A stretch of DNA of 64,000 bases, taken from assembly GCA_900100475.1 (NCBI GenBank), contig FMTU01000001.1, positions 186,001 to 250,000 of the forward strand, in the 5' to 3' direction. The DNA is from Sphingobium faniae (GTDB taxonomy: Bacteria; Pseudomonadota; Alphaproteobacteria; Sphingomonadales; Sphingomonadaceae). Each line of letters begins with the position of its first letter. Position 1 is the first letter of the stretch. A model generated the notes under the pieces. It worked only from the letters and a program-made list of their open reading frames with translations. It made no database searches and was not told the origin of the DNA. The position numbers were made by a program, and so were the translations under genes. Positions 9,220 through 48,466 of this stretch are shown piece by piece.

Positions 9220-9274
9220 GCGCAGCCATTTGTCATGGCGGGCTTCATCGGATGGAGGTGAAGCCCGAAAGACA

Positions 9275-9363: not shown

Positions 9364-9438
9364 CCTCTCCCTCGCCCATGGGGGAGAGGGTTGCGCAGAC
9401 CTGGCAGCTTGCTGGCTGGTCGTAGCTGGGTGAGGGGG
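9364..9438. repeat. Sphingomonad-type intergenic palindromic repeat
   Basis: The block begins with an interrupted palindrome CCTCTCCC...GGGGGAGAGG around CCATGG, continues through TTGCGCAGACCTGGCAGC and TTGCTGGCTGG, and closes with TAGCTGGGTGAGGGGG. From memory, this wording recurs between genes in many sphingomonad genomes as a dispersed REP-like element. No other copy was found in this window, so the repeat status rests on recalled knowledge. Confidence 0.55.
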
Positions 9439-9470
9439 AAGCCGCCTTCGGGATAGCGCAGGACCTCGCC

Positions 9471-9836: not shown

Positions 9837-9905
9837 CGACTGACCCGTATTTTATCCATTGAAGGATGGGTCATTGCCATTGGCGCATGGACAAAATGTT
9901 AATCC

Positions 9906-10370: not shown

Positions 10371-10804
10371 CTGGCTCTCCGACTCGATGTGCCCCCGGCG
10401 CTGAACGGACCGGCGGCCATTCCCTATGGTTGGGCGCCCTAATAGCCACGGGCGGGAGACGACACAAGCGAACATTCTCCGCTCGTTAATGTCCGCCGCC
10501 CACCTGTTTTCCCGTCGGGTCAGGACATGCGCCGAGTCCCTTCCGGACGGGCTTGGAGAGAGAGAGAGTTGCGGCAAGCCGGATTCATTTCGCCTCCCGC
10601 ACATGTTCCACAGTGGGACGTTAACCATATCTGGCTACCCAAGACCGTGAATCTCCTCGACCTGAAGGTGGCAATCAGGGTTAACAGCATTGCGGTTAAC
10701 GCTTTATTTTGCGTTCCTGCACATAGGGAAAACCCGTTGCCCTCCCCTTTACCGGGTCAGGCCGGCGATGGGAAAGCCGCGGATAAAAGGACAAGAGTGA
10801 ACCT
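10371..10804. other. Long intergenic region between divergent dksA and the serine-rich gene
   Basis: This 434-bp region holds no convincing gene. A leftward open frame continuing dksA shows no family-like sequence. It should contain the divergent promoters. Visible elements are a GA-rich run (near 10,555-10,568), a GTTAAC at 10,620-10,625, and a direct repeat GGTTAAC at 10,679-10,685 and 10,694-10,700 (15 bp apart) followed by AT-rich sequence, a plausible regulator or promoter area for the rightward gene. Confidence 0.5.
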
Positions 10805-11806: not shown

Positions 11807-11829
11807 CAGGACGGCTTTTCCAGAACAAG

Positions 11830-11868
11830 GGAAAGGGGCGGAACCGGGCGACGGTCCCGCCCCTTTCC
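11830..11868. terminator. Bidirectional terminator
   Basis: A 12-bp stem, GGAAAGGGGCGG (11830-11841) with CCGCCCCTTTCC (11857-11868), lies between the convergent serine-rich and Host_attach genes. It lacks a long T run but is very stable. Confidence 0.65.
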
Positions 11869-11878
11869 TGTTGATGGA

Positions 11879-12319
11879 TCAGCTTTCGGAAATGATCCGC
11901 TCGATTTCCGGCACCGGATGGTTGGCCAGATCCTTGGCGATCTCTCCGACAAGGCGGCTTTGCACTTCCTTGTGATAATGTTTGCGCATCTCGCCCAGAA
12001 TGGCGGGCGGCGCGACGATGATCAGCTTCCCATAATCGTTCGCCAGCGCGCCGCGTTTCAGCAGGTCCGCCGCTTCCGCCGCGAAACGGGCTTCTTCCAG
12101 ATCGTGGAAATCCGTCTGCTCCATGCTGCTGCGATGGCTGCCGACCGAATTGAACGCCCGCCCCGGCGCATCCGACGCCTGATCGCGATCGGGCGGGTTG
12201 TCCTGTTCCCGCACCGTCTCCGCTTCCAGATTGGGAAACGCCCCGTCGCCTTTGTTACGAAGCAGTAACAATTTGCGCCCGTCCACCACCATCACCACCC
12301 CGTCAAAATCAATCCGCAT
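11879..12319 (-). CDS. Host attachment family protein (Host_attach, PF10116-like)
   Basis: A 146-residue soluble protein. It starts MRIDFDGVVMVVDGRKLLLLRNKG, continues with a polar middle that includes RAFNSVGSHRSSMEQTD, and ends in a conserved half with DLLKRGALANDYGKLIIVAPP, MRKHYHKEVQ and EIAKDLANHPVPEIERI. This matches the family named after proteins studied in plant-associated bacteria; a biochemical role is not established to my knowledge. The ATG at 12319 has an AAGGAG site 8 nt upstream and is preferred to the TTG/GTG codons just before it. Confidence 0.78.
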   Translation of the reverse strand: MRIDFDGVVMVVDGRKLLLLRNKGDGAFPNLEAETVREQDNPPDRDQASDAPGRAFNSVGSHRSSMEQTDFHDLEEARFAAEAADLLKRGALANDYGKLIIVAPPAILGEMRKHYHKEVQSRLVGEIAKDLANHPVPEIERIISES

Positions 12320-12407
12320 CACCAACTCCTTTCATGGATTCCCCGCATCAACGGACGGCGGCGCGCAGGGTTGCGCCGCTGATCGCGGAACGGCATAGGG
12401 CTGATCC

Positions 12408-13685
12408 ATGCACGACATCCGCTTCATCCGCGAAAACCCCGCCGCCTTCGACGCCGCCCTCGCCCGCCGTGGCGTCGAGCCGCTCTCCGCCGGCATCCTC
12501 GCGCTCGACGAACGCAGCCGCGCGCTCAAGACGGAATTGCAGCACGGCCAGGCCCGCCGCAACGAAGCGAGCAAGGCCATCGGCCAGGCCATGGCCGCCA
12601 AGGACACGGACAAGGCCGAAAGCCTGAAAACCGAAGTCGCCGCGCTGAAGGAACGGATGCCCGCTCTGGAGGCAGAGGATCGCGAAACCGGCGAGCAGCT
12701 TCACGCGATGCTCGCCGCCATCCCCAACCTTCCCGCCGACGACGTGCCCGGGGGGCAGGATGAAACGGCCAATGTGGAAATCGGCCGCTGGGGCGAGCCG
12801 CGCAGCTTCCCCTTCACCCCGCAGGACCATGCCGATTTCGGCCCCGCCCTGGGTCTGGATTTCGAGAGCGCGGCTGCACTGTCGGGCGCCCGCTTCGCCG
12901 CCCTGCGCGGACAGATGGCGCGGCTTCACCGGGCGCTCGCGCAGTTCATGCTGGACCGCCAGTCGGGCGAGAATGGCTATGAGGAAGTGAACCCGCCCCT
13001 GCTCGTCCGCGACGAAGCGCTGTTCGGCACCGGCCAGCTTCCCAAATTCGCCGAGGATCTGTTCCGCACCACCGACGGCCGCTGGCTGATCCCCACAGCG
13101 GAAGTCAGCCTCACCAATCTGGTGCGCGAACAGATCGTGGCGGCGGATCGCCTGCCGATGCGCCTCACCGCGCTCACCCCCTGCTTCCGCTCCGAAGCCG
13201 GATCGGCGGGACGCGACACGCGTGGCTTCATCCGTCAGCACCAGTTCGAGAAGGTGGAACTGGTCGCCATCTGCAAGCCCGAAGAGTCCGAAGCCGAACA
13301 TGAACGCATGTGCGCGGCGGCGGAGGGCGTCCTCCAGGCGCTGAACCTTCCCTATCGCAAGATGCTGCTCTGCACCGGCGACATGGGCTTTTCCGCGCGC
13401 AAGACCTATGATCTCGAAGTCTGGCTGCCGAGCCAGCAAAGCTATCGCGAAATCAGTTCCGTCTCGAACTGCGGCGACTTTCAGGCGCGGCGCATGAATG
13501 CCCGCTACAAGCCGGAGGGAGCAAAGCAGACCCGCTTCCTCCACACGCTGAACGGGTCGGGACTGGCGGTCGGCCGCGCGCTGGTCGCTGTGCTGGAAAA
13601 TTATCAGCAGGAAGACGGCAGCGTCATCGTTCCCGAAACGCTCGCACCCTATATGGGCGGGCTCACACGGCTACGGCCCAACTGA
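12408..13685 (+). CDS. serS: Seryl-tRNA synthetase
   Basis: Charges tRNA-Ser (and tRNA-Sec where present) with serine. At 425 residues it is normal in length. Residues 1-105 form the long antiparallel coiled-coil tRNA-binding arm. The class II core shows TAEVSLTN (230-237), motif 2 around [16 protein letters not shown] (258-273), an [11 protein letters not shown] segment (353-363) and motif 3 [17 protein letters not shown] (382-398). It is followed by surE after 10 nt, an arrangement common in Alphaproteobacteria. Confidence 0.97.
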
Positions 13686-36972: not shown

Positions 36973-37506
36973 ATGATGCACCGCCTGTTCGTCGCCATTC
37001 GCCCGCCCCTGTTCATCCGGTCCCGCTTATTGGGGCTGATGGAGGGCGTTTCCGGCGCGCGCTGGCAGAATGATGACCAATTGCATCTGACGCTCCGCTT
37101 CATCGGCGAAGTGGAGCGCCATATCGCAGAAGATCTGGCTGACCTTCTGAGGTCAGTCCGCTTCTCTCCCTTTTCGATCGAACTGGCCGGTGTCGGCCGT
37201 TTCGAGAAAAATGGCCGGGCCGACAGCCTTTGGGCTGGTGTGCAACCGCGTGAGCCACTCGCGGCATTGCACCGCAAGATGGACCATCTCTGCGTCACGC
37301 TCGGCCTGAAGCCGGAAGCGCGCGCTTATTTGCCGCATATCACCATCGCCCGCTGCGGACGTTCCACCGCGCCGACCGATCCCTTCATGGAACGCAACGC
37401 CGGCCTCACCAGCGTCCCGTTCGCGGTGGAAGGCTTTTCCTTATATGAAAGCCATCTGGGCGGCGAAGGAGCCATCTATAACCGGATCGCCCACTATCCC
37501 GACTAG
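36973..37506 (+). CDS. thpR: RNA 2',3'-cyclic phosphodiesterase ThpR (2H family)
   Basis: A 2H phosphoesterase opening RNA 2',3'-cyclic phosphates. Both catalytic HxT motifs are visible: HLT (38-40) in QLHLTLRFIG and HIT (122-124) in LPHITIAR. The 177-residue length is usual, and the end ...GAIYNRIAHYP is intact. It is the last host gene before the integrated element; the recombinase remnant begins within a few bases of its stop. Confidence 0.93.
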   Translation: MMHRLFVAIRPPLFIRSRLLGLMEGVSGARWQNDDQLHLTLRFIGEVERHIAEDLADLLRSVRFSPFSIELAGVGRFEKNGRADSLWAGVQPREPLAALHRKMDHLCVTLGLKPEARAYLPHITIARCGRSTAPTDPFMERNAGLTSVPFAVEGFSLYESHLGGEGAIYNRIAHYPD

Positions 37507-37509
37507 CTG

Positions 37510-37698
37510 TACTCCTACGCGAGAAGCTGCATCACGGTTCACCTGATCTGCGCCAGGCTTATGCCCGGCTACTACTCAGCGAGGTTCGCGTGGACGATCA
37601 GAAAATCCGCATCAGCGGCTCCAAAGCCGTGCTGGCCCGGAGTGCCGCCGGGGGGCGTGGCCAAGACCACGCCCGCAATTCTCTCTTTTGTTCGAGAA
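37510..37698 (+). pseudogene. Frameshifted 3' end of a serine recombinase
   Basis: In one frame the DNA reads LREKLHHGSP, DLRQAYARLLLSEVRVDDQK, IRISGSKAVLARSAAGG, the pattern of the C-terminal end of resolvase/recombinase-family serine recombinases (VDD..IRI.G.K.VL). After a run of six G (37650-37655) the natural continuation GVAKTTPAILSFVREW is in the next frame, so one base was gained or lost there. The catalytic domain is gone. The fragment stops at the left 16-bp repeat. Joining 37698 to 48390 gives WCTQQDSNLWPSD and a stop inside the tRNA-Arg gene, so this recombinase once ended in that tRNA. Confidence 0.75.
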
Positions 37699-37714
37699 TG
37701 GTGCACCCAACAGG
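37699..37714. repeat. attL, 16-bp direct repeat
   Basis: TGGTGCACCCAACAGG is identical to 48390-48405, the last 16 nt (reverse strand) of tRNA-Arg(CCU). It marks the left end of the integrated element; flanking bases differ on both sides, so the identity is exactly 16 bp. Confidence 0.85.
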
Positions 37715-37830
37715 GGTGCAAGATTCCAGCGAAAACAACGCGGAGCGAAGGCTAACGGGCACTTTGTTGCTCACGGGGAACCGGCGAGTCGCATCCCCGC
37801 TGGCTAACCTTTTCTCTCCCCCCGGCCACG

Positions 37831-37869
37831 AAAAAGCCCCCGATCTGGCGGCAACCGGATCGAGGGCGG
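37831..37869 (-). terminator. Leftward intrinsic terminator at the element's left end
   Basis: Read leftward, GCCCTCGATCCGG is followed by a loop, CCAGATCGGGGGC and TTTTT: an imperfect GC-rich stem with a five-T tail. It would stop transcription leaving the element towards thpR. Between attL and the primase start (37715-37930) nothing else is seen. Confidence 0.55.
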
Positions 37870-37930
37870 AATACCTTTCCATAGCGGCGGATAGGCACGG
37901 AAACCCTACCAGCGATGGGAGGGCTGTGCA

Positions 37931-39955
37931 ATGACGGTCATGCAGGCCGAACGCGCCTTCGCGCTCCCCGACCGCTGGAAGCGGCTCGTTGATCTGGGCT
38001 TTAGCGCCTTTCCCGTCGAGCGGCGCGGCAAGAAGCCGCTGGGCAAATGGAAAGCCTATCAGGCCGAGCGCCCCGACATCACCACGGTGCGGCAGTGGAG
38101 CGGCCGGGACACCAATATCGGCGTCGCGACCGGAGCCGTCTCCGGGCTGCTGGTCCTCGATCTGGACAATGCAGAGGCGATTGCAGAGGCGGAACTGCGG
38201 GGCATCCCCGACACCATCACGGTTCGCACCGGCAAGGGGCAGCATGTCTATTTCGCGCATCCGGGCGGGATCGTCGGCAACCGGGCAGGCATCTTCCCCG
38301 GTGCCGATATTCGTGGCGATGGCGGCTATGTCGTCGCGCCTGGCTCGATCCATGAGAGCGGCACGGCCTATGAATGGCTGAACCCGCCCGGCCTGTTCCA
38401 GCTTGCCCCGGTCCCTGATTGGCTAATGGACATGCTGAGGACGCCTTCGCTGGTTGCTGTCGAGGCCGGGAAGGTCCGCAAAGCCCAGCCCGGCGCAAGG
38501 AACGACCAGTTGAACAAATCCGCGTTCCGGCTGGGGCAGGAAGCGGCAAGCGGGCATGTGGATCAGGGCGAGGCGCGCGCGGCGTTGGCGGATGCAGCGC
38601 GCGCGGCTGGACTGGACGACGAGGAAACGCGCGCCACGCTCGCCAGCGGGCTAGGCGCGGGGCATGTAACGCCTAAGCGGAACCGTGACCCGTCTGAGGA
38701 TGATATAGCGCTCGCCTTCGCCGCTCGCCACGGTCAGACGCTCCGCTTCGACCATAATGTAGGCGCATGGTTCGAGTGGGACGGAACCCGGTGGAAGAAG
38801 GATAGCTGCCACAGGGCGTTCACCTATGCCCGGCAGATAGGCCGCCAGCGCGGCGCGGCGGGCAAGGCGAATTTCGCCGGGGGCGTGGAGAAGTTCGCCC
38901 GCGCCGATCCCGTTCATGCTGTCACGTCCGAAATCTGGGATAGCGACCCGCTGCTGTTGGGCACACCGGGCGGCACGGTGGACCTGCGGACGGGGGAATA
39001 TGCCCCCGCGAAGCCCGATAACTATATCACCAAACTGACGGGCATTTCCCCGGAACATGGCGAACCGACGCGGTGGCTCCAGTTCCTTGAAGAGGCGACG
39101 GCGGGCGACCATGAACTGATGCGCTTCCTGCAACAGGTGGCGGGCTATTGCCTGACGGGCCTGACGAACGAACACGCGCTGTTCTTCATTTACGGGCCGG
39201 GCGGCAACGGCAAGTCCGTGTTCCTCAATATCCTGAATTTCATCCTGGGCGACTATGCCACGACAGCGGGCATGGATACCTTCACGGCGAGCAAGAGCGA
39301 CCGGCACCCGACCGACCTTGCCATGCTCCGGGGCGCGAGGATGGTATCCGCCAGCGAAACGGAGGAGGGCCGCGCATGGGCGGAAAGCCGGATCAAGCAG
39401 ATGACCGGCGGCGACAAGATCAGCGCCCGGTTCATGCGGCAGGACTTCTTCGAGTTCATTCCCGCATTCAAGCTGGTGATCGTCGGCAACCACGCCCCGG
39501 TGCTGGCGAACGTCGATGAGGCAGCGCGGCGGCGGTTCAACATCATCCCGTTCACGCATAAGCCCGCCAGCCCGGACAGGATGCTAGAGGAGAGGCTGAA
39601 GGAGGAAGCCGGGCGCATCCTCGCTTGGGCGATCCGGGGTTGCCGGGACTGGCAGGCAAACGGGCTTGTGCGGCCGGAGATCGTGACGGCAGCGACGGCG
39701 GAATACTTCGATGATCAGGATTTGTTCGGCCAGTGGATCAATGATCGCTGCGAGCGTTCGGCCAACAAGTTCGAGTTGCCCACGCCTCTCTATAACGACT
39801 GGGCATCTTATGCGCGCGCGGCAGGCGACGATCCCGGCTCGCAGCGCGCTATGAGCGGCAGGCTCAAAAGAGCAGGTTTCCGATATGGGAAGAACAACGG
39901 CGTTCGGGCATACTATGGCGTTTCGCTGCGCCCGTGTGCTGGTGGCCTGCCATGA
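37931..39955 (+). CDS. Phage/plasmid-type primase-helicase (Prim-Pol + D5/P4-type ATPase)
   Basis: A 674-residue replication protein. The N-terminal Prim-Pol domain shows LVDLGFSAFPVERRGKKPLG, catalytic VLDLDN (75-80, Asp77/Asp79), GKGQHVYF and APGSIHESG. A D5_N-like middle contains DGTRWKKD and the TPGGTVDLRTGEY element. The superfamily 3 helicase part has Walker A GPGGNGKS (422-429), a TEEGRAWAE segment and sensor IVGNHAP (517-523). This architecture starts replication of satellites and phages at an adjacent iteron origin; such an array lies immediately downstream. A GGGAGG site precedes the ATG. Confidence 0.93.
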   Translation: MTVMQAERAFALPDRWKRLVDLGFSAFPVERRGKKPLGKWKAYQAERPDITTVRQWSGRDTNIGVATGAVSGLLVLDLDNAEAIAEAELRGIPDTITVRTGKGQHVYFAHPGGIVGNRAGIFPGADIRGDGGYVVAPGSIHESGTAYEWLNPPGLFQLAPVPDWLMDMLRTPSLVAVEAGKVRKAQPGARNDQLNKSAFRLGQEAASGHVDQGEARAALADAARAAGLDDEETRATLASGLGAGHVTPKRNRDPSEDDIALAFAARHGQTLRFDHNVGAWFEWDGTRWKKDSCHRAFTYARQIGRQRGAAGKANFAGGVEKFARADPVHAVTSEIWDSDPLLLGTPGGTVDLRTGEYAPAKPDNYITKLTGISPEHGEPTRWLQFLEEATAGDHELMRFLQQVAGYCLTGLTNEHALFFIYGPGGNGKSVFLNILNFILGDYATTAGMDTFTASKSDRHPTDLAMLRGARMVSASETEEGRAWAESRIKQMTGGDKISARFMRQDFFEFIPAFKLVIVGNHAPVLANVDEAARRRFNIIPFTHKPASPDRMLEERLKEEAGRILAWAIRGCRDWQANGLVRPEIVTAATAEYFDDQDLFGQWINDRCERSANKFELPTPLYNDWASYARAAGDDPGSQRAMSGRLKRAGFRYGKNNGVRAYYGVSLRPCAGGLP

Positions 39956-39958
39956 GGC

Positions 39959-40068
39959 AGGGACGCAAGGGACGCTTAGGGACACTTCAAAGTGTTAATC
40001 GCCCACACGCGCACGCGCGCATGGAGATTCATAGGGTATATCCGTCCCTAAGCGTCCCTAGTGTCCCT
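39959..40068. promoter_or_regulatory. Inverted iteron array, candidate replication origin of the element
   Basis: Three AGGGAC units on the top strand (39959, 39968, 39978) are mirrored by three GTCCCT units (40044, 40054, 40063), with spacings 9, 10 ... 10, 9. The arms share the 16-bp block GTCCCTaagcGTCCCT as an inverted repeat. The 60-bp centre holds TTAATC, an alternating CACACGCGCACGCGCGCATG tract and an AT-rich GATTCATAGGGTATAT. It lies just after the primase-helicase gene. Origin function is an inference; an operator is the alternative. Confidence 0.6.
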
Positions 40069-40079
40069 TGGTGGCGCGC

Positions 40080-40226
40080 ATGACCCCTGCCCGCACCGCC
40101 CGCCAGTTGGCCCGCGACCTGTCCCGGCTCTCCCCCGACTGGCGCAACCCGGAACGCTTCTTCCTCAACCGCAATGAGATCGAGCGCGCGTTGCAGCGGC
40201 TCGCCAAGCAACTGGAGAACCATTGA
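40080..40226 (+). CDS. Small basic protein (48 aa) of the element
   Basis: The frame reads MTPARTARQLARDLSRLSPD and so on, ending LAKQLENH: a basic helical protein with an RNEIERALQRLAKQLE helix. It starts 12 bp after the last iteron and its stop overlaps the HNH gene start (TGATG), which supports it being real. No family recognised; size and charge would fit a DNA-binding accessory protein. Confidence 0.55.
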   Translation: MTPARTARQLARDLSRLSPDWRNPERFFLNRNEIERALQRLAKQLENH

Positions 40227-40615
40227 TGGCCCAATGGCCCTACAACACGACGACATGGCGCGACCTTCGCTTTGCGCATCTGGCGCTGTTCCCGGCCTGC
40301 AAGGGCTGCGAGGCCATGGGCAGGCTCACCCGCGCCAACACCGTCGATCATATCGTGCCGATCAGCGAGGGCGGCGCGGCCTTCCCCGGTCATGATGGGC
40401 TAAGATCATACTGCCAAGCCTGTCACAGCGCCAAGACTGCACGGGGCACCGAGGCAGGCGCGATCCGGTCGACCAAGCCGCGCAAGGGCTGCGATGTGGA
40501 CGGCTGGCCGCTCGACCCGGCGCATCCGTGGAACAGCGAAAAATCGCTCAGGGCTGACGATCCAAGACCGACGCCGAACCTTCACAATCAGTTAGTTTCA
40601 AAGGACAACCTATAA
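40226..40615 (+). CDS. HNH endonuclease
   Basis: A 129-residue phage-type HNH nuclease. Zinc Cys pairs are C25-KG-C28 and C63-QA-C66, and the nuclease core is NTVDHIVPISEGG (38-50, His42) with CHSAKTARG after it. Such HNH proteins sit beside the large terminase in HK97-like phages and help DNA cutting during packaging. Here it is coupled to both neighbours: its ATG overlaps the 48-aa gene and its stop TAATG overlaps terL. Confidence 0.9.
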   Translation: MAQWPYNTTTWRDLRFAHLALFPACKGCEAMGRLTRANTVDHIVPISEGGAAFPGHDGLRSYCQACHSAKTARGTEAGAIRSTKPRKGCDVDGWPLDPAHPWNSEKSLRADDPRPTPNLHNQLVSKDNL

Positions 40616-42198
40616 TGGGAGCCCGAGGACCGGGCGCGGGACGCCTCAAAGCCGTTGCGGCGCGGGCACCTGCTACCGCTGCCAACCCGTGGGAAAAGGC
40701 CGGGATGCCTGCTGCTGACCGCGTGCTGGCGTTTCTGGGCACGTTGCCGATTGTCGCGGGCCTCAAGGCTGGCGAGAAAATGGAGGTGCTGGATTTTCAG
40801 GAGCGTTTCGTGCGCGGCGTGTATGCCGAGACGGAAGGCGAGCGGCTGGTGCGCCTTGCTGGCCTGTCCGTGGCGCGCGGCAACGGCAAGTCCGGCCTGC
40901 TGGCTGGGCTGGGCCTCGCGCATCTGCTGGGGCCGATGATGGAACCCTATGGCGAGTGCTATGCCGCCGCCCTCGACCGCGAACAGGCGAGCGTGCTTTA
41001 CCGCATGACCTGCGCCTACATCTACGAAACCCCATGGATGGCCGGACGGGTGAATATCCGCGACCAGACAAAGGAAATCACGGATCACGAAAGCGGGTCG
41101 ATCTGGCGCGCCCTGACCTCCGATGCTCGAAAGGCGCACGGCCTGGCCCCCTCATTCTGGATCGCGGACGAAGTGGCGCAATGGCGTTCCCGCGAACTAT
41201 GGGACAATCTGCGGACCGGCATGGCGAAGCGCAAGCACGCGCTGGGCGTGACGATCAGCACGCAAGCTGCGGACGATCTGCATTTTTGGTCGGAAATGCT
41301 GGACGCGGAACCGGCGCCATCGGTTTATATCCAGCTTCATGCGGCCCCTGACGATTGCGCGCTGGACGATCGCGAGGCGTGGGCGGCGGCAAACCCGGCA
41401 TTGGGCGCGTTCCTCAACGAGGATGAATTTGCCGATGCAGCGGCCATGGCCATGCGCTCGCCATCTTTCGCCCCGGCCTTCCGCTTGCTCAACCTCAATC
41501 AGCGGATTGCCGCCGAGGGCCGGTTTATCGAACAGGCAGATTGGGACGCGAACGGCGATCCCTTCGACGTGACGGAACTGGAGGGCAAGCGTTGCTATGG
41601 TGGCCTCGACCTGTCCAGCACGCGCGACCTCACCGCACTGGCGCTATGGTTCCCGGACGAAGGCAAGCTGCTGGTGTGGCATTGGCTCCCCGCCGATACC
41701 ATCGCGGCGCGGGTGGAGCGGGACCGCGTGCCCTATGACCGCTGGACTGCCGATGGCTGGGCAGAGGTGACGGTGGGCAATGCCCGCGATGATCTGGCGA
41801 TTGCGCTGCAACTGGCAGACATTCGTGCCCGCTATGACGTTCAGGGCATCGCCTTCGACCGCTGGCAGATTGCGCGGCTCAACAAGCTGCTGTCGGACGA
41901 AGGGATAGACCTGCCCATGGTCGAGTTCGTCCCCGGCTTCCGATCCTATGCAGCGGCGGTGGATGCATTCGAGACTGCGGTGCTGGGCCGAAAGATGCAG
42001 CACAACAACAATCCCCTGCTGCGCTGGCAGGCCGGGAACGTGATCGTGGAGTCGGACCCGGCTGGGAACCGCAAACCGACCAAGGCGAAGTCGCTGGACC
42101 GGATCGACGGCATCGTGTCCGCCATCATGTCCTGCGGACTTGCGGCGACCGATGAGGGGCCGCAAGTCTATCGCGGTGAAGGGCTGATGTGGGTTTAG
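40615..42198 (+). CDS. Terminase large subunit
   Basis: The packaging motor and nuclease, 527 residues. The N-terminal ATPase has a Walker A-like ARGNGKS (87-93), preceded by the MEVLDFQERFVRGVY adenine-region motif, and a Walker B WIADEV (182-187) with the catalytic Glu. The C-terminal RNase H-like nuclease has YGGLDLSSTRDLTAL (Asp332), the pattern of TerL_nuclease (phage_terminase_1 group). It is full length. No small terminase gene is seen upstream, where one is normally found. Confidence 0.92.
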   Translation: MGARGPGAGRLKAVAARAPATAANPWEKAGMPAADRVLAFLGTLPIVAGLKAGEKMEVLDFQERFVRGVYAETEGERLVRLAGLSVARGNGKSGLLAGLGLAHLLGPMMEPYGECYAAALDREQASVLYRMTCAYIYETPWMAGRVNIRDQTKEITDHESGSIWRALTSDARKAHGLAPSFWIADEVAQWRSRELWDNLRTGMAKRKHALGVTISTQAADDLHFWSEMLDAEPAPSVYIQLHAAPDDCALDDREAWAAANPALGAFLNEDEFADAAAMAMRSPSFAPAFRLLNLNQRIAAEGRFIEQADWDANGDPFDVTELEGKRCYGGLDLSSTRDLTALALWFPDEGKLLVWHWLPADTIAARVERDRVPYDRWTADGWAEVTVGNARDDLAIALQLADIRARYDVQGIAFDRWQIARLNKLLSDEGIDLPMVEFVPGFRSYAAAVDAFETAVLGRKMQHNNNPLLRWQAGNVIVESDPAGNRKPTKAKSLDRIDGIVSAIMSCGLAATDEGPQVYRGEGLMWV

Positions 42199-42261
42199 GG
42201 AAGTCGTATCGCGACCAGCCGCAAAATTCGCCGCATCGCTTCGGGACGGCTGGCACCGGGA

Positions 42262-42450
42262 TCACAACTTTGGCCGCCGATTCCATAATCGGACAGCTTC
42301 GGCCTGGTCATCGCGCATTGGCCCCTCCGCGCCGCAAACCTGGCACTTTACTGCGAAAGCCTTGGAAAAGACGTGCTCGTAAAAAATCAGATTGGTGGCG
42401 AGGCAGAACGGACAAGGCTCAAGCGGTTGCTCAATGGGCGGGCTACTCAT
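42262..42450 (-). CDS. Lar-family restriction alleviation-like protein (62 aa)
   Basis: A two-Cys-pair zinc ribbon: EPCPFCLATNLIF (Cys13, Cys16), AVKCQVCGAEGP (Cys36, Cys39), then AVRLWNRRPKL. The order PCPFC...C..C...W N matches Lar proteins, small phage-borne factors that lessen host type I restriction in the Rac prophage. It is transcribed opposite to the packaging genes, and its start overlaps the RHH gene by 8 bp, so the two form one small operon. Confidence 0.72.
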   Translation of the reverse strand: MSSPPIEQPLEPCPFCLATNLIFYEHVFSKAFAVKCQVCGAEGPMRDDQAEAVRLWNRRPKL

Positions 42451-42637
42451 GCCCTATCAGCTTGCCAGCCAGAATCTGGCGAATAGCCTCTGGCCGCGAC
42501 GGCCGTGGCTCTTGTTGCGCGATCCATGCATCGAGGGCTGCGAGGTCGGCGGGCTGTAGGCGGACGAGTATTCCCAAGCCCTTGCCAGTGGTGGCGGGTC
42601 TGCCTCGCTTTTTCGGGATATCACTAATTGACGACAT
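42443..42637 (-). CDS. Ribbon-helix-helix type small regulator (64 aa)
   Basis: The protein begins MSSISDIPKKRGRPATTG, an AT-hook-like basic leader, then GILVRLQPADLAALDAWIAQ and SRPEAIRQILAGKL. This matches a CopG/Arc-type fold: one beta strand and two helices with the turn before SRPEAIR. It likely represses its own operon. Direct repeats GGGATATCAC flank its start codon (42615-42624 and 42647-42656). The partner is the Lar-like gene downstream. Confidence 0.75.
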   Translation of the reverse strand: MSSISDIPKKRGRPATTGKGLGILVRLQPADLAALDAWIAQQEPRPSRPEAIRQILAGKLIGHE

Positions 42638-42656
42638 GCAACATTGGGGATATCAC
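42615..42656. promoter_or_regulatory. GGGATATCAC direct repeats around the RHH start (candidate operator)
   Basis: Two identical 10-bp copies, GGGATATCAC at 42615-42624 and 42647-42656, lie 32 bp apart (about three helical turns). One is inside the first codons of the RHH gene and one is upstream. The core GATATC is itself a palindrome, which suits a dimeric repressor. Autoregulation is inferred. Confidence 0.5.
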
Positions 42657-42662
42657 AAAGCC

Positions 42663-42696
42663 GACCTGAAGGAAAGTTGGAGCTTTCCCTCAGGTC
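42663..42696. promoter_or_regulatory. 14-bp inverted repeat in the divergent control region
   Basis: GACCTGAAGGAAAG (42663-42676) and CTTTCCCTCAGGTC (42683-42696) pair with one A/G mismatch and a 6-nt centre. It lies between the leftward RHH-lar operon and the rightward acidic-protein gene. It could be an operator or an mRNA hairpin upstream of 42726. Confidence 0.45.
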
Positions 42697-42725
42697 TAAC
42701 CGCAACCGTCTAGTTGGAGACGATC

Positions 42726-43082
42726 ATGGCTAACACCGATCTACGGGCGGATTCCGCCCTTGTCACCCTACCGAATTGCTTACCATCCATGCCTGCCGTG
42801 GCGCGCATCCTGTCCCGCTATGACCGCGAGCGACTGGAAGGATTTGTCGCTATTGCAATTGACCTCATGGACCTGATGGACGGCGATCCCGATCTGGAGG
42901 ACGGCGACGCGGACGAGGACGACGATCCGGCGGGCGGTAACGTCGAGGATGAACGACAAATGGCAGCGGGACAGGACTATTATCGCCTGCCGCCCCGTTA
43001 CGGCATCGACCAGACCAAGGGGCCGATCAATGAGATCGAGGCTTATCGCCAACATCGGAGGGATATGGGCTGCTTGGATTGA
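42726..43082 (+). CDS. Acidic hypothetical protein of the element (118 aa)
   Basis: It has a hydrophobic/helical first half (NCLPSMPAVARILSRYDRERLEGFVAIAIDLMDLMD), then a strongly acidic stretch (DGDPDLEDGDADEDDDPAGG) and a polar end with RQHRRDMGCLD. The ATG 42726 has TTGGAG 7 nt upstream. Not recognised. Acidic tracts of this kind occur in DNA-mimic or scaffold-like proteins, but nothing here proves either. Confidence 0.6.
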   Translation: MANTDLRADSALVTLPNCLPSMPAVARILSRYDRERLEGFVAIAIDLMDLMDGDPDLEDGDADEDDDPAGGNVEDERQMAAGQDYYRLPPRYGIDQTKGPINEIEAYRQHRRDMGCLD

Positions 43083-43128
43083 GGATTGTGCCCACCCGCT
43101 TTTTGGCGGGCAGGCCAAAGCGCGGCAC

Positions 43129-43157
43129 TTGACACGCTTAAAAGCGTGCCTTATCTC
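43129..43157 (+). promoter_or_regulatory. Promoter and palindromic operator before the MerR-like gene
   Basis: TTGACA at 43129-43134, a 17-bp spacer and TATCTC (43152-43157) form a plausible promoter. The spacer contains most of a perfect palindrome CACGCTT-AA-AAGCGTG (43133-43148), whose left two bases lie in the -35 box. A regulator bound there would control the gene that heads the capsid operon; self-control by the MerR-like protein is inferred. Confidence 0.55.
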
Positions 43158-43180
43158 ACGCTCTATATTTGGAGCACGCC

Positions 43181-43774
43181 ATGAGATATACCGTCCGCAA
43201 CATAGAGCGCGAGTTCACGCCAGCCGAGGCGGCGGAGATCACGGGCGTATCGACCGCGCTTCAACGTGACTGGCGGCGGCGCGGGATACTGGCAGAGAAA
43301 GTTGAAGGTAAGTGGACGCGCTGGACGCTGAAAGACGTTATCGGGCTGGCCGTCATGAAGCGCCTTTCGGATGCGGGGATTGATGTATCAAAGACCCTGG
43401 ACGCAGCCGCGATGGCTGTCCTGCCCACCTTTGGATGCATCTACGCAATTGACGGCGCAATCGAGATCACTGGCGCGAAAGTGCCGGACAAGCTCCTGAC
43501 AGCTATGCTCTACGCCGATGGCATCCAGACCCGTAATTCGGACGGCTCCCCCGGACGTGAGCCGGGCCACTATCTGTTTATCGGTCGAGATTTTGTCAGC
43601 GAAGCGGTGCAAACCGCGCGTTTTTCTTCCTTGGCGGGCATGGACGACTTTCTCACCGAGCGCACCTTTGGCCTGTTTTTGGTTTTAGACTGCGAAACAC
43701 TTGGGTTGGAAATCTTCTATCGCGCTGGCGGGAAGCCGCTCATCCGCAAGGAAATCGAGGCGAGCCACGAATGA
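43181..43774 (+). CDS. MerR-like helix-turn-helix regulator of the element
   Basis: A 197-residue protein. The N-terminal winged HTH resembles MerR: TPAEAAEITGVSTALQRDWRRRG (about 13-35), a wing with KVEGKWTRWTLKDVIGLAVMKRL, then a possible dimer region (DAGIDVSKTLDAAA). The C-terminal 110 residues show no known sensor. The ATG 43181 has a GGAG site. Its stop overlaps the next small gene (ATGA), so it heads the capsid operon running to 47304. A switch or late-gene activator role is an inference from position. Confidence 0.75.
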   Translation: MRYTVRNIEREFTPAEAAEITGVSTALQRDWRRRGILAEKVEGKWTRWTLKDVIGLAVMKRLSDAGIDVSKTLDAAAMAVLPTFGCIYAIDGAIEITGAKVPDKLLTAMLYADGIQTRNSDGSPGREPGHYLFIGRDFVSEAVQTARFSSLAGMDDFLTERTFGLFLVLDCETLGLEIFYRAGGKPLIRKEIEASHE

Positions 43775-43923
43775 CGAAATCGCCTCTCCCCAAGGCGTCC
43801 GCCGCCGCGTCTGGCACTGCGGAAGGGGTGCACCCCATGGGGACGTTTTGCCCACGCTGCGAAGCGTCGGTTTTCACCGCGCCGGGGGCTTCGGTCCCCG
43901 GCCAGATTGAGGAAGTAACATGA
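43771..43923 (+). CDS. Small protein (50 aa) coupled to the capsid gene
   Basis: The frame MTKSPLPKASAAASGTAEGV... contains FCPRCEASVF (one CxxC pair) and ends QIEEVT. Both ends overlap neighbours by ATGA (MerR-like gene before, capsid gene after), which argues for real translation. The single CPRC could bind zinc as a dimer. No family recognised. Confidence 0.5.
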   Translation: MTKSPLPKASAAASGTAEGVHPMGTFCPRCEASVFTAPGASVPGQIEEVT

Positions 43924-45158
43924 AAACGAGTGACTTGATCGAACAGCGGGCGGGGATCGTCGCTCGCATGAACACCGCCCACGAAGCCGACGACAATGCT
44001 GCTTTCGAGGCGGCCGAAACCGAACTGCGGGCGCTCGACGCCAAGCTGGATCGCCAGCGCAAGATCGACGACGCCGACCGCGCCGAACCGGGCACGCCGC
44101 TCAACGGCGACAACAAGCTGACCAGCGAGATCCGTTCCCGCTTCAACATCGGCCGCGCCATCGCGGGCGCTGCGGGGCTGGCGGTCGATTGGGGTTTCGA
44201 ACGCGAGGTGCAGACCGAATTGGCGAAGCGCGCCGGTCGCAACGCCGAGGGCGTTTTCATCCCGACCGAGTGCTTTGAAACCCGCGTGCTGACCACCGCC
44301 ACCGGCTCCGAGCTGGTCCCGACCGAGCATCGCCCGGATCAGTATATCAGCGCCCTGACCGCCTCCAGCGTCGTTCGCGGCATGGGTGCCCGTGTCCTGT
44401 CGGGCCTGACCGGCAATCTCTCCATCCCCCGTGAGACCGATAGCCCCGCCATCGGCTGGGTCGCGGAGAATAGCGCCCTGACCTCCGACGATGCCGACTT
44501 TGACGCCATCACCCTGTCGCCCAAGCACGCGGGCGCGCTGTCGGAATGGTCGCGTAACATGCTGATGCAGGCCAGCCCGGACGTGGAAAGCCTGTTGCGC
44601 GAGATGCTGGCCCGCAACCTCGCGCTGGCGATCGACAAGGCGGCGATCCTTGGCGGCGGGACGAATGAACCCAAGGGCGTCCTGTCCACGGCGGGTATTC
44701 AGAAGATCACCGCCCCGACTTCGCTGTTCGATGCGGTGGCCGATGCCGTGGCGCTGGCGGACGTGGCGAATGTGGGCGCATCCCGTGGCCTGCTAACTAC
44801 CCCGGAAATCCGCAAGATCGCCGCCAAGGCGCTGGACGCCAACGGCCTGCCGATCGGCATCGACAAGGTATTCGGCGGCGTATCGGCGACCTTCTCCAAT
44901 CAGGTGCCCAAAACGCTGGGCGGCACTCCCGGCACCGAACATGGCATGATCTACGGCGACTGGTCGGAGCTGCTGATCGGCATCTGGAGCGAGATTGATA
45001 TTCTCGTGAACCCGTTTGAATCGACGGCCTACAGCAAGGGCAATGTCATGATCCGCGCCATGGCGACGGTCGATTGCGCGGTGCGCCACCCCAAGGCGTT
45101 CGTGTCGATCGAGGACGTGACGACCGCCACGGCGGCCATGCCGGCGGTGACTCCGTAA
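43920..45158 (+). CDS. Major capsid protein, HK97 family
   Basis: A 412-residue capsid subunit. Residues 1-60 form a charged coiled-coil (LIEQRAGIVARMNTAHEADD, ETELRALDAKLDRQRKIDDA), the scaffold-like delta domain removed by the protease. The HK97 fold follows with recognisable GMGARVLSGLTGNLSIPRET, SEWSRNMLMQASPDVESLLR, ILGGGTNEPKGVLST and GDWSELLIGIWSEIDILVNP segments. The delta domain is short compared with HK97 gp5. The stop overlaps the protease start. Confidence 0.93.
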   Translation: MKTSDLIEQRAGIVARMNTAHEADDNAAFEAAETELRALDAKLDRQRKIDDADRAEPGTPLNGDNKLTSEIRSRFNIGRAIAGAAGLAVDWGFEREVQTELAKRAGRNAEGVFIPTECFETRVLTTATGSELVPTEHRPDQYISALTASSVVRGMGARVLSGLTGNLSIPRETDSPAIGWVAENSALTSDDADFDAITLSPKHAGALSEWSRNMLMQASPDVESLLREMLARNLALAIDKAAILGGGTNEPKGVLSTAGIQKITAPTSLFDAVADAVALADVANVGASRGLLTTPEIRKIAAKALDANGLPIGIDKVFGGVSATFSNQVPKTLGGTPGTEHGMIYGDWSELLIGIWSEIDILVNPFESTAYSKGNVMIRAMATVDCAVRHPKAFVSIEDVTTATAAMPAVTP

Positions 45159-45703
45159 TGGCGGCCGGGGACGATATGGAGCGGCGGGCCTTTAGCGAGG
45201 TCCGCGCCTCCGGGCGGCGGCTGGAAGGCTATGCCGCCACCTTCGGCAGCGAGGCGGCTATCGGCGGTTTCCGCGAGCGTATCGCCCCCGGTGCCTTTCG
45301 TGGCGCGCTGGCGGGGGACGTGCTGGCGATGCTGGACCATGACCCCGGCAAGGTGCTGGGGCGCACCCGTTCGGGCACGCTGCGGCTCACAGAGGACGCG
45401 AGGGGCCTCGCCTTCTCGCTCGACCTTCCCGATACGCAGGCGGGCCGTGACGTGCTGGCGCTAGCGGAACGCGGCGACCTTGGCGGCATGTCCTTCGGCT
45501 TCACGGTGCCCAAAGGCGGCGAAAGCTGGCAGGGGGAGACCCGGACGCTTCGCACCGTGGATCTGAAAGAGATCAGCGTCGTGCAGGCGTGGCCCGCCTA
45601 TCCCGACACGGAGATCGCGCTGCGCAACCGTGGCCATGATGACCATGGCCTGCGCCGCCGCCGGTCCCTCATTCTCGCGGAGGTGGCCCGTGCGATTGGC
45701 TGA
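45158..45703 (+). CDS. HK97-family prohead protease
   Basis: A 181-residue serine protease that matures the capsid. Family segments: SGRRLEGYAATFG, FRERIAPGAF, LDHDPGKVLGRT (catalytic His61) and GDLGGMSFGFTVP (catalytic Ser112), then LKEISVVQAWPAYPDTEIAL. The ATG 45158 overlaps the capsid stop (TAATG). It sits after, not before, the capsid gene, the reverse of the usual portal-protease-capsid order. Confidence 0.93.
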   Translation: MAAGDDMERRAFSEVRASGRRLEGYAATFGSEAAIGGFRERIAPGAFRGALAGDVLAMLDHDPGKVLGRTRSGTLRLTEDARGLAFSLDLPDTQAGRDVLALAERGDLGGMSFGFTVPKGGESWQGETRTLRTVDLKEISVVQAWPAYPDTEIALRNRGHDDHGLRRRRSLILAEVARAIG

Positions 45704-46853
45704 CCGCATCCTGTCCCGGCTGGGCTATGAGCGCCGCGACGCCAGCGATCCGTCATGGGCGGCGCTGGCTCCGGGCATCGGCTATCATGCGGGCGTGTCG
45801 GCGCGCTATGCCGAGAATATGAGCGCGGTGCTGGGCTGCGTGAACGTGATCGCGGACAGCCTCGCCAGCATCCCGGCGCTGGTCTATCGGCTGGAGGGCG
45901 AAAACAGGATCGAGGCGATGAGCCATCCCCTGCGCCGCCTGACCGTCAACGGCGTCAATGAGGGCATGACCTGGCCGGAGTTCATCGGCCATCTGGTCGC
46001 CTCCACGCTGCTGACCGGCAACGGCCTTGCCGAGATCATCCGGGCGGGCAACGGGCAGTTGTCGGGCCTCGCCTATATCCCGTGGGGCATGGTGACGGTC
46101 GCGGAACTGTCCAGCGGCAGGCTGGCCTATGATGTGTCGGACGGGCGCGGCCATGGGCGCCGCCTGCTGGCCGGTGAAGTCATCCACCTTCGCGACCGGA
46201 CTGATGACGGCAAGATCGGCGTGTCGCGCCTGTCGCGCGCCGCTGATGCCGTCAATGCCGTGGACCTTGCCAACCGCCATGCGCGGTCCTTCCTCGCCAA
46301 TGGCGCCAGCCCCAGCGGCATTATCGAGGTGCCGGGTACGATGAAGCCCGATCAGCGCACGGCGCTGCGCGATCAAATCCAGTCGGGCCACGGCGGCGCG
46401 GCCAATGCTGGCAAGACCATGATTATGGACGGCGGGATGACGTGGAAGGGCGTGTCCCTGTCTCCAGAGGACAGCGAACTGCTGGAAACCCGGAAGTTCG
46501 GCACGGAAGAAATCTGCCGTCTCTTTCAGGTGCCGCCCCCGCTGGTGCAGGACTATTCGCACAACACCTTTACGAACAGCGAGACGGCCGGGCGCTGGTT
46601 CGCCATGTTCACGCTGGCCCCGTGGGCGCGAAAGATCGAGGCGGAATTTGCCCGATCCGTATTCCCCTCCAATGGTCCTTACGAACTGGAACTGGATCTG
46701 TCCGGCTTCCTTCGCGGCGACCCGCAAACCCGCTGGCAGGCCCACGAAATCGCCCTGCGCAACAATGTGCTGGACGCCAACGAGGTTCGCCAGATTGAGG
46801 GCTGGAACCCGCGCGCCGTCGACGCCCCTAAAACTGGGGAGGTTACGGAATGA
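45690..46853 (+). CDS. Phage portal protein (HK97 type)
   Basis: A 387-residue subunit of the dodecameric DNA gate. Family segments: YAENMSAVLGCVNVIADSLA, HPLRRLTVNGVNEGMTWPEF, LLTGNGLAEIIR, LIPW-like AYIPWGMVT, EVIHLRDRT, GVSRLSRAADA and FGTEEICRLFQVPPPLVQD. The GTG 45690 (VRLADRIL) has GGAGG 7 nt upstream and overlaps the protease end by 14 bp. The C-terminus couples by ATGA to the connector gene. Confidence 0.93.
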   Translation: MRLADRILSRLGYERRDASDPSWAALAPGIGYHAGVSARYAENMSAVLGCVNVIADSLASIPALVYRLEGENRIEAMSHPLRRLTVNGVNEGMTWPEFIGHLVASTLLTGNGLAEIIRAGNGQLSGLAYIPWGMVTVAELSSGRLAYDVSDGRGHGRRLLAGEVIHLRDRTDDGKIGVSRLSRAADAVNAVDLANRHARSFLANGASPSGIIEVPGTMKPDQRTALRDQIQSGHGGAANAGKTMIMDGGMTWKGVSLSPEDSELLETRKFGTEEICRLFQVPPPLVQDYSHNTFTNSETAGRWFAMFTLAPWARKIEAEFARSVFPSNGPYELELDLSGFLRGDPQTRWQAHEIALRNNVLDANEVRQIEGWNPRAVDAPKTGEVTE

Positions 46854-47116
46854 CTGATCTTGTCACCCTCGCGGAAGCCAAGCTGCACCTGCGCGTCACC
46901 CATGACGATGAGGATACGGCCATCGCCATGATGATCGCGGCGGCGTCGGAAGCCGTGGCGGACGTGGTGGCGGAGATCGCCCCCGGCGCCATCCCCGTCC
47001 GCCTGAAACTGGCCGTCCTGACCCGCGTAGCGATCATGTTCGACAAGCGCGATAGCATCGAGGCGGGCAAGGGCGAACTGCCCATGCTGACGCCATTGCG
47101 GAGGTTGGAGGTCTGA
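46850..47116 (+). CDS. Head-tail connector protein (gp6-like)
   Basis: An 88-residue helical protein: LVTLAEAKLHLRVTHDDEDTA, IAMMIAAASEAVADVVAEIA, IPVRLKLAVLTRVAIMFDKRD. This is the Phage_connect/gp6-like family that forms the ring under the portal. It overlaps both neighbours (ATGA with the portal, TGATG with the next gene). It is the last recognisable head-completion gene. Confidence 0.88.
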   Translation: MTDLVTLAEAKLHLRVTHDDEDTAIAMMIAAASEAVADVVAEIAPGAIPVRLKLAVLTRVAIMFDKRDSIEAGKGELPMLTPLRRLEV

Positions 47117-47304
47117 TGGCTGCCCGCCGCGCCTTGATCCGTGAAGCTGATCTGCGCCGCTGGGCGCGGATTGCTCGCGATGAGGGCGTGGCGATCCGTG
47201 GCAGCATCGCTCCCGATGGCACAGTGCAAGTTCTTGTGGAGCCGGGGCGCGTACGCGACGATGGTAATAGCTTCGATCAGATGATGGGTGGTGCACGTGG
47301 CTAA
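47116..47304 (+). CDS. Small basic protein (62 aa), possible head-closure or regulatory factor
   Basis: The protein starts MAARRALIREADLRRWARIA and contains REA-type charged helices and a GTVQVLVEPGR strand, ending MMGGARG. It is coupled to the connector gene (TGATG) and overlaps the integrase start. Similar short ORFs follow the connector in alphaproteobacterial elements, as I recall. No domain assigned. Confidence 0.55.
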   Translation: MAARRALIREADLRRWARIARDEGVAIRGSIAPDGTVQVLVEPGRVRDDGNSFDQMMGGARG

Positions 47305-48379
47305 GCGGTGGCTCCCGCAATGGGTAAGCGAATATAAGGACCGGCACGGGAAGGCTCGCTATCGGTTCCGGCGCAAGGGCTTCGCTCAACATCTGTTCAA
47401 GCACGCTCCCGGCACGGATGGTTTCCGGCAGGAATATGAGGCTTGCAAACAAGGCATTGCTGCGGAGCCAATCGCCCCCGGCGTCGATCGCATTGTCCCC
47501 GGCAGTTTCAACGACTTGATCGCCCGCTATTATCGCTCCCCTGACTTTCTCGACCCCGGCGAGCGTACGCGCGTCGTCTATCGCGGCGCGATCGAGCGGT
47601 GGCGCATCAAATATGGCAAGGCGATGGTGCGCGACCTGGCTGCGCGTCATGTCGAAAGCATGATGGCGGAAATGCTGCCGCATCGGACAGCCGCGAACAT
47701 GCTGCGGAAGCGGCTCAATGCTCTGATGAAGTTTGCCATCCGGCAGGGCATGGCAACGAATAACCCCGTCACGGCAACGAAGCCTTATAGGGTGGATGGG
47801 GAGGGCTTCCACACATGGAGCGAGGCGGAGATCGCGGCCTATGAGGCGCGCCATCCGCTAGGCACGAAAGCGCGTCTCGCGCTCGACCTGATGCTATGGA
47901 CAGGCCAGCGCGGCGGCGATGCCCGCGTGATGGGACCGGGAAATATTCGTAACAAGCGGCTCGTGGTGACACAGGAGAAAACTGGTGCGACGGTCTCGCT
48001 GCCGATCCTTTCCCCGCTGGCGTCATCCATCCTCGCCACCCCATCGGGCGCAATGGTTTTCCTGCTCAGCGAACACGGTAAACCATTCAGCCGCAAAGGC
48101 TTCGGCAACAAGATACGGCAATGGTGCGATGAGGCTGGCCTGTCGCAGTGTTCGGCGCATGGGCTTCGTAAGGCCGCCGCGCGGCGCTTCGCGGAAGCTG
48201 GCTGCACAAATCAGCAAATCAAATCCTGGACCGGCCACACGACCGATAGCGAGGTGGCGCGCTACACAGCCGCCGCCGATCAGCAGGCGCTTTCGGACGC
48301 TGCCGCTGAAATGCTGATGGCTAACCTTGCCGATAGGTTAGCCAATCGGGTCTCTAACCCCCTAGAAAAGGAGGCTTAA
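47288..48379 (+). CDS. Tyrosine-type site-specific integrase
   Basis: A phage integrase of 363 residues from the GTG at 47288 (in-frame GTG codons at 47291 and 47297 are also possible). An N-terminal arm-binding part (RYRFRRKGFAQHLF) and a SAM-like core domain precede the catalytic domain. The catalytic set is visible: Arg208 in WTGQRGGDA, Lys near 231 (QEKTGATV), His291/Arg294 in SAHGLRKAAA, His317 in TGHTT and the nucleophile Tyr326 in EVARYT. It ends 10 bp from attR in the tRNA-Arg gene, as expected for an integrase targeting that tRNA. Confidence 0.94.
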   Translation: MVHVAKRWLPQWVSEYKDRHGKARYRFRRKGFAQHLFKHAPGTDGFRQEYEACKQGIAAEPIAPGVDRIVPGSFNDLIARYYRSPDFLDPGERTRVVYRGAIERWRIKYGKAMVRDLAARHVESMMAEMLPHRTAANMLRKRLNALMKFAIRQGMATNNPVTATKPYRVDGEGFHTWSEAEIAAYEARHPLGTKARLALDLMLWTGQRGGDARVMGPGNIRNKRLVVTQEKTGATVSLPILSPLASSILATPSGAMVFLLSEHGKPFSRKGFGNKIRQWCDEAGLSQCSAHGLRKAAARRFAEAGCTNQQIKSWTGHTTDSEVARYTAAADQQALSDAAAEMLMANLADRLANRVSNPLEKEA

Positions 48380-48389
48380 ATGCCAAAGG

Positions 48390-48405
48390 TGGTGCACCCA
48401 ACAGG
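48390..48405. repeat. attR, 16-bp direct repeat inside tRNA-Arg
   Basis: TGGTGCACCCAACAGG is identical to 37699-37714 and coincides with the last 16 nt of the tRNA gene (T-arm 3' side, acceptor strand and CCA). The tRNA is therefore kept whole by the element's own copy. Confidence 0.85.
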
Positions 48406-48466
48406 ATTCGAACCTGTGGCCTTCGGATTAGGAATCCGACGCTCTATCCTGCTGAGCTATGGGTGC
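48390..48466 (-). tRNA. tRNA-Arg (anticodon CCU)
   Basis: A 77-nt cloverleaf on the minus strand. The acceptor stem is GCACCCA / TGGGTGC with discriminator A and encoded CCA. The anticodon arm is TCGGA-TTCCTAA-TCCGA, giving anticodon CCT (reads AGG). The T-arm is CAGGTTCGAATCCTG with T-loop TTCGAAT. All stems pair, so it should be functional even though an element is integrated at its 3' end. Confidence 0.96.

Follow-up and report, generated by a model that had tools for sequence, protein, structure and literature searches.

The stretch of DNA analysed here, referred to as the window, comprises 64,000 nucleotides of the 4.84-Mb genome of Sphingobium faniae (positions 186,001 to 250,000 of contig FMTU01000001.1; G000:C57:186001-250000 in our numbering), and its positions 37,699-48,405 hold an intact, chromosomally integrated mobile element of 10.7 kb that carries phage head and packaging genes. 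Both flanks consist of bacterial genes, as judged by translations, and the integrase is found at the right end of the element, adjoining a tRNA-Arg(CCT) gene. From left to right, the element and its attachment (att) site are arranged as follows, with supporting matches in brackets.

37699-37714: attL, 16 bp (TGGTGCACCCAACAGG), an exact copy of 48390-48405
37931-39955, plus strand: Prim-Pol/D5 primase-helicase, 674 amino acids (aa) (Pfam Prim-Pol 9.9e-34, D5_N 5e-23; PHROG DNA primase 3.8e-125)
39956-40068: candidate replication origin directly 3' of the primase gene, made up of six GGGACGCTTA-like repeats of about 10 bp, three in direct and three in inverted orientation (TRF rows, read by eye; putative function)
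40068-40226, plus strand: small conserved open reading frame (ORF), 52 aa (tblastn relatives in several elements)
40223-40615, plus strand: HNH endonuclease of the packaging module (Pfam HNH 1.6e-8; PHROG 6.7e-28)
40615-42198, plus strand: terminase large subunit (TerL), 527 aa (TerL_nuclease 8e-36, TerL_ATPase 4.3e-14)
42262-42450, minus strand: Lar-type restriction alleviation protein (PF14354 9.8e-11), possible cargo against host restriction
42443-42637, minus strand: small ribbon-helix-helix-like protein (RHH_1 0.018, under the cut-off), with hidden Markov model (HMM) matches at the same place, after TerL, in relatives
42714-43082, plus strand: 122-aa protein without a family in Pfam or PHROG, with HMM matches in relatives
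43169-43774, plus strand: MerR-type helix-turn-helix (HTH) regulator (MerR_1 2.9e-5), candidate activator of the head operon
43843-43923, plus strand: two-hairpin capsid leader RNA, 81 nt, reaching the capsid start codon (model R1, 80.5 bits, E 4.7e-17; the training rows of the model included a copy of it)
43920-45158, plus strand: HK97-type major capsid protein, 412 aa (Phage_capsid 5.8e-37; PDB 8gta 3.2e-28)
45074-45703, plus strand: prohead protease S78 (Peptidase_S78 3.4e-42), start likely at about 45155-45158
45630-46853, plus strand: portal protein, 407-aa ORF (Phage_portal 4e-93), true start probably further in
46850-47116, plus strand: head-tail connector, Ad1/gp6-like (PHROG_40 1.6e-14; PF05135, Phage_connect_1, 1e-8)
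47116-47304, plus strand: 62-aa ORF before the integrase, no family (short ORFs at the same place in relatives)
47288-48379, plus strand: tyrosine integrase (Phage_integrase 2.6e-18)
48390-48405: attR, TGGTGCACCCAACAGG, an exact repeat forming the 3' end of the tRNA-Arg(CCT) gene
48390-48466, minus strand: tRNA-Arg(CCT), the attachment site (ARAGORN)

The Pfam and PHROG matches and the att repeats bear out a preliminary description of this DNA that had proposed an intact element with integrase, primase-helicase, HNH, TerL, capsid, protease, portal and connector genes and without tail, tape-measure or lysis genes; none of the latter, and no small terminase gene, was found among the scanned ORFs of the element. 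Other details of that description were adjusted. No CI/Cro gene was found, as it had stated, but a MerR-type HTH gene precedes the head genes. The short overlaps that it had assigned to nearly all neighbours join HNH to TerL, capsid to protease, portal to connector and connector to the 62-aa ORF, whereas gaps of about 60-270 bp separate other genes, two of which lie on the minus strand. The short ORF at 43771-43923 lies partly over the conserved leader RNA and probably does not encode a protein. An IMG/VR contig of 10,449 bp represents the same element, all 14 compared proteins being 100% identical.

Among 298 Sphingomonadaceae genomes (including the host genome), related portals were found at 15 places in 13 genomes (50-100% identity), a fourteenth genome held a portal fragment (80%, 89 aa), and the remaining 12 places reached only 31-35%. 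A 19-row portal alignment searched against 84,980 species genomes yielded 55 loci, some partial and most in Sphingomonadales, with further hosts in Rhizobium, Xanthobacter, Nitrobacter and Acetobacteraceae; hosts known from metagenome bins, for which binning errors are possible, were Hirschia, Parvularcula, Magnetospirillum, Dongia, Nitrosovibrio and Desulfovibrionaceae. A search of 384 further genomes from the class gave a single one that passed E 1e-100, so the family is patchy and, set against the portal search of the 298 genomes, commoner in Sphingomonadaceae. IMG/VR contained 169 relatives, the best 80 of which were taken, two of these on contigs longer than 15 kb. Of 50,697 phage records, 1431 matched the portal, none at 60% identity or more (the best 20 of the 1431 at 31-35%), and the capsid gave 80 matches, none with 80% query cover (31-34% for the 12 of 80 listed); 474 plasmid records had a portal match, none reaching 60%. 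Two genomes carried two portals of the family, G196 on C4 (near 290 and 334 kb, about 43 kb apart) and G035 on C10 and C11. The only exact terminal repeat among sequences of at least 5 kb was that of L111 (Paracraurococcus ruber; contig of 10,201 bp, 121-bp repeat, giving a circle of 10,080 bp, no integrase match), which may be an episome or, alternatively, the product of assembling tandem copies. A PADLOC search for defence cargo returned three families among 89 proteins, the best of them (E 9.9e-7) in a control protein.

Profiles of the core proteins were scanned over 157 sequences, and a set of 105 distinct loci was defined by the joint presence of capsid, protease, portal and integrase, with one locus per portal sequence, five phage controls left out and the element of the window (L042) counted once. 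TerL was detected in 84 of these loci, HNH in 79, the Ad1 connector in 51, the head-closure protein Hc1 in 22 and a recognised replication gene in 66, all of which are lower bounds because contig ends cut some loci. The integrase lies to the right or to the left among relatives; it starts less than 5 kb after the portal in 91 of the 105, with a median gap of 444 bp and more than 1500 bp in two (L094, L169).

Profile scans, tail queries from the host's own genome and PHROG revealed no tail operon in any of the 105 loci. In one search, 16 query proteins (tail, head-closure and lysis proteins of the own-genome loci C61, C60 and C90, plus the tape measure of L066) were run against the 157 sequences; tail genes were seen in phage controls L068 and L072 and not in L069-L071, so that this search misses divergent tails. 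PHROG revealed tape-measure genes in the latter three, bringing all five nearest-phage control loci to one each. In relatives, the 16 queries returned Hc1 in 16; L050/L051 gave an NlpC-like gene and L066/L110 the tape measure, besides a single antisense match in L127. Additionally, a pooled PHROG scan covered 87 representatives of the 203 non-core clusters (280 of 403 non-core proteins) and two chosen proteins. The 25 of 50 families listed included tape-measure families for L100 and L170, replication proteins, one small terminase subunit (TerS) in one relative, and single-member tail families, taken as the NlpC-like protein; no lysis gene was among them. The exceptions are single tail-type genes: NlpC-like (L050/L051) and tape measure (L066, L100, L170).

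Element boundaries were assigned where a tRNA-anchored repeat of at least 15 bp spanned the head genes with copies 6-16 kb apart; these limits were chosen by us, and this sample represents tRNA sites and 6-16 kb sizes only. Of 39 att-bounded rows, 36 remained after dropping the copies L086, L104 and L110, and these 36 averaged 10,516 bp (sd 561, range 9,018-12,418), or 10,462 bp (sd 463) once L087, whose TerL is broken and which contains additional DNA, was excluded; this spread is far narrower than the imposed limits. The sites are tRNA genes for 11 amino acids (Arg, Glu, Gln, Tyr, Lys, Ser, Gly, Met, Phe, Cys and Val). Of the 36 elements, 32 (31 of 35 plus L224) have an integrase together with full-length genes for HNH, TerL, capsid, protease and portal, the incomplete ones being L066, L087, L100 and L121. 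In seven pairs, the ratio of nonsynonymous to synonymous substitution rates (dN/dS) was 0.017-0.464 for TerL, HNH, capsid, protease, portal and connector, indicating purifying selection, with dS near saturation in several pairs and an over-long ORF in the L136/L101 connector row; integrase values were 0.05-0.64, high in divergent pairs and uninformative in three that are too divergent. The preliminary description had argued against random prophage decay, and had held that tail or lysis genes in close relatives, or decay in most copies, would point to a degraded prophage; as neither a tail operon nor widespread decay was seen, the case for a satellite is now stronger than that description could make it.

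A portal tree was built from 66 rows, namely 43 portals of the family chosen for spread, 22 from phages and gene transfer agents (GTAs), and one from a capsid-forming phage-inducible chromosomal island (cf-PICI), an annotated Escherichia coli stretch that we take to be EcCIEDL933. All portals of the family fell on one side of a single branch (support 100/99), with the 22 phage/GTA portals outside. The EcCIEDL933 portal, the only cf-PICI reference, was placed next to this clade (92/65), a position that is unsure because of its long branch. Replication genes are exchanged within the family: Prim-Pol/D5 in the window, AAA_25 (in some with a Toprim part) in L045, L046, L058 and L061, and O-like initiators in L057, L065 and, weakly, L054. 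The element belongs to a widespread family that shares one portal clade, a common head set and a length close to 10.5 kb, and the near-constant length combined with the single portal clade points to real particles of very small size. The HK97 capsid has a triangulation number (T) of 7. Scaling packed length with T^1.5 from HK97 (39.7 kb), a T=3 shell would hold 11.1 kb and a T=4 shell 17.2 kb. In PMC7762592, a 12.6-kb peak is tied by a model to T of about 3, and the abstract calls the absence of T=3 tailed phages puzzling; the paper also warns that satellite P4 (11.6 kb) forms T=4, above prediction.

The second feature shared by many members is the RNA leader, which was reached through k-mers shared outside the core genes, collected in a search for a cos site, and through the DNA preceding the capsid gene. 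No cos site is proposed. From 69 pattern hits in 137 loci, 49 were aligned with MAFFT, 13 being left out as coding or dissimilar and 7 as cut short, tandem or near-copies. The consensus fold consists of hairpin 1 with a GNGA loop and a G+C-rich hairpin 2, often with TTCG, closed by a 3-bp helix just before the Shine-Dalgarno sequence. Paired positions are complementary in 97.8% of 923 cells (82.6% when shuffled), two-sided changes occur in 12 of 19 pairs, and both sides changed in 136 cells (48.7 when shuffled). None of 500 shuffles reached any of these measures, and slides of 1-3 columns pair at 35-48%; the shuffle test can be inflated by relatedness, which the slide control keeps. A fresh alignment of 26 further R1 matches gave the same fold, toward which selection by the model leans. 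The leader is a strongly covarying RNA, new here and without an Rfam match: with E allowed up to 5, Rfam 15 gave six hits, all of them away from the leader, and the non-tRNA hits fell below the gathering score.

R1 matched 70 of the 98 loci in which the capsid start is present, weakly in L118 (29.5 bits) and L062 (21.2 bits), and relative to the earliest start that the capsid ORF allows, the matches begin between 95 nt upstream and 191 nt downstream; where they begin later, the ORF is open beyond its likely start. The 28 loci without the leader comprise 13 from hosts outside Sphingomonadales, 8 others with the integrase on the left and 7 other IMG/VR contigs; the leader is nevertheless present in four elements with the integrase to the left (L057, L063, L158, L159). 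The host genome contains it once, at the element of the window; HK97, own-genome loci L006-L013 and all five phage controls gave no R1 match. In the 298 Sphingomonadaceae genomes, where several matches are training rows and stricter filters were used, 11 of 12 R1 matches lie at members of the family, ten at those found by portal and one before a family capsid on another contig of G139; the remaining match, in G004, is weak (28.7 bits) and without a capsid. The exact core pattern in IMG/VR was confined to 7 contigs of 5.9-13.8 kb, all relatives from earlier searches. The gene preceding the leader varies among elements, and its position suggests that the RNA probably controls or stabilises capsid expression. 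Hairpin 1 is doubled in tandem in L135, L141 and L148. Ahead of the leader, a palindrome at window positions 43825-43836 (GGGGTGCACCCC) is perhaps an operator or terminator, and in 13 of 106 loci its core GTGCACCCC recurs close to where the capsid gene starts.

The element resembles EcCIEDL933 in its integrase, primase, capsid-protease-portal order, connector, HNH and TerL, and in having no annotated tail genes. In contrast, EcCIEDL933 has TerS (P27) and both head closure and connector, carries its packaging genes after rather than before the head genes, and spans about 14.4 kb from the integrase to the last listed gene; the capsid leader RNA and the portal clade set the present element further apart. 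TerS is counted among cf-PICI genes in PMC10690885. As for regulation, AlpA/Stl-type in cf-PICIs, the regulator seen here is the MerR-type HTH protein before the head genes. Because no TerS was found and common descent is not firmly supported, the element is not filed as a cf-PICI member; the likeness drawn in the preliminary description holds for gene content and the lack of tails, but not for TerS, the place of the packaging block or firm tree support. The Vibrio satellite-plasmid cf-PISP (PMC13230959) also has head genes without tail genes and is episomal, as circular relative L111 may be; that paper found it in Vibrio only, whereas the element of the window sits inside a chromosomal tRNA gene. 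HK97-type tailed phages and the alphaproteobacterial GTA share its head protein families but have tails and lysis genes and portals outside its clade. No published account of this family was found in the literature searched; the founding cf-PICI and SatelliteFinder data sets may contain members.

Combined, these results indicate that the element is very probably an integrated tail-less phage satellite that works like a cf-PICI. It occupies a tRNA gene between att sites with its own integrase and carries its own replication module (Prim-Pol/D5 and repeats), HNH and TerL, and an HK97-type head set of capsid, protease, portal and connector. Once a tailed phage is replicating in its host, the satellite would excise, replicate from the repeats beside the primase gene, express its capsid through the structured leader directly before the ribosome-binding site, and build a small head of about T=3 by volume scaling. 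It would pack its own genome with its own HNH and TerL, and its heads would attach through portal and connector to the tails of a helper, which would also provide lysis.

Several points weigh against this interpretation. The element has the Ad1 connector without Hc1, and 54 of the 105 loci have no connector by profile. No TerS was found by Pfam or PHROG among the listed ORFs of the window, where a divergent TerS could escape, which leaves cos recognition without an explanation. L075, whose portal is the nearest to that of the window (92%), has no leader; it lies outside the 98-locus set, its integrase not being seen. Three relatives (L066, L100, L170) encode a tape-measure protein of 592-672 aa and show no HNH or TerL. 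Finally, no exact empty site was found among five congeners at the same tRNA-Arg; of the two examined further, one holds a related satellite (L211/L224) that spans 10.4 kb with its integrase at the left end, and the other (L210) a serine-recombinase-like element, judged by eye. The left-flank genes lie elsewhere in 7 of 7 genomes searched, on another contig of the draft in two.

Two side observations can be added. A small conserved protein just before HNH in relatives (e.g., L138, 2418-2750; a cluster of 20 proteins) has a winged-helix look by eye and no family match in the scan of L138, and is a candidate for the missing small terminase. The stretch at window 37502-37698, about 197 bp left of attL, has an 82% copy near the left end of the same-tRNA satellite of G330 and a further copy (89%) elsewhere in that genome.

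The alternative of a small autonomous virus, either with a tail that escaped recognition or with another mode of entry, could draw on the genes without assigned function between TerL and capsid, and about 87% of PHROGs have no function; however, this interval in the window is only about 1.7 kb and filled by HTH genes and short ORFs, the PHROG families listed for relatives held no lysis gene, and the tail-joining connector is kept in 51 of 105 loci, making an independent virus very unlikely.

If the element is a satellite, its tails could come from siphophages like the own-genome prophage C61 (Hc1, major tail protein, tape measure, Dit, tail fibre, endolysin), which are candidate helpers; C60 also has tape-measure and tail-fibre matches. 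C61 is put forward as a possible helper rather than an actual one. In the strain of EcCIEDL933, 0 of 17 prophages mobilised it at detectable frequency, according to PMC11389934. A satellite that uses the tails of the host's GTA instead would find one in a cluster on C90, read as a GTA from its translations, and the connector model matches a C90 protein weakly (2.3e-4), but it matches C61 better (1.2e-9), the Hc1 of 16 relatives matches that of C61, and the C90 portal falls far outside the satellite clade, so that GTA tails are more improbable again. The genome contains another HK97-type block (G000:C85:172794-181985) with HNH, TerL, portal, protease, capsid and Hc1 matches.

Least likely is prophage degradation, with the tail and lysis genes lost at random: the gene types would be those of an HK97-like prophage, and among the att-bounded relatives L087/L059 is broken, having a truncated TerL and no capsid, but this reading was rejected in view of the same tail-less set at near-constant size in many hosts and tRNA sites, the purifying selection, the fact that no tail operon turned up in the relatives examined, and a capsid-protease-portal order, that of EcCIEDL933, unlike the TerL-portal-protease-capsid order of HK97.

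Within the satellite family, the tape-measure branches form a variation. Their tape-measure genes lie at 6489-8267 (oriented) in L066, att-bounded in Sphingomonadales, at 5147-7165 in L100, att-bounded in Rhizobium, and at 4357-6339 in L170, whose ends are not seen; those of L100 and L170 are 62% identical. These branches may use the terminase of the helper. Satellite tape measures in chimeric tails are known from phage-inducible chromosomal island-like elements (PLEs), and putative ones are drawn for cf-PICIs (PMC12987554); L066, L100 and L170 share the possession of such a gene, whereas the element of the window has none. The tape-measure satellites are a new occurrence rather than a new idea.

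Taken further, the findings suggest, as a tentative proposal that we rate somewhat below even, a separate, mainly alphaproteobacterial satellite lineage in which a T=3-like tailed shell keeps the genome size near 10.5 kb, a new class of cis-regulatory RNA, found so far at these satellites only, gates the capsid, and side branches exchanged terminase for a tape-measure gene. If true, the shell would be of the head size reported missing among tailed phages. Apart from this proposal, the family extends head-making satellites to Alphaproteobacteria, with named cultured hosts. The leader RNA is a specific marker for many such elements and a handle on the timing of head production, and the element in Sphingobium offers an entry point to a large satellite family for which no earlier description was found.

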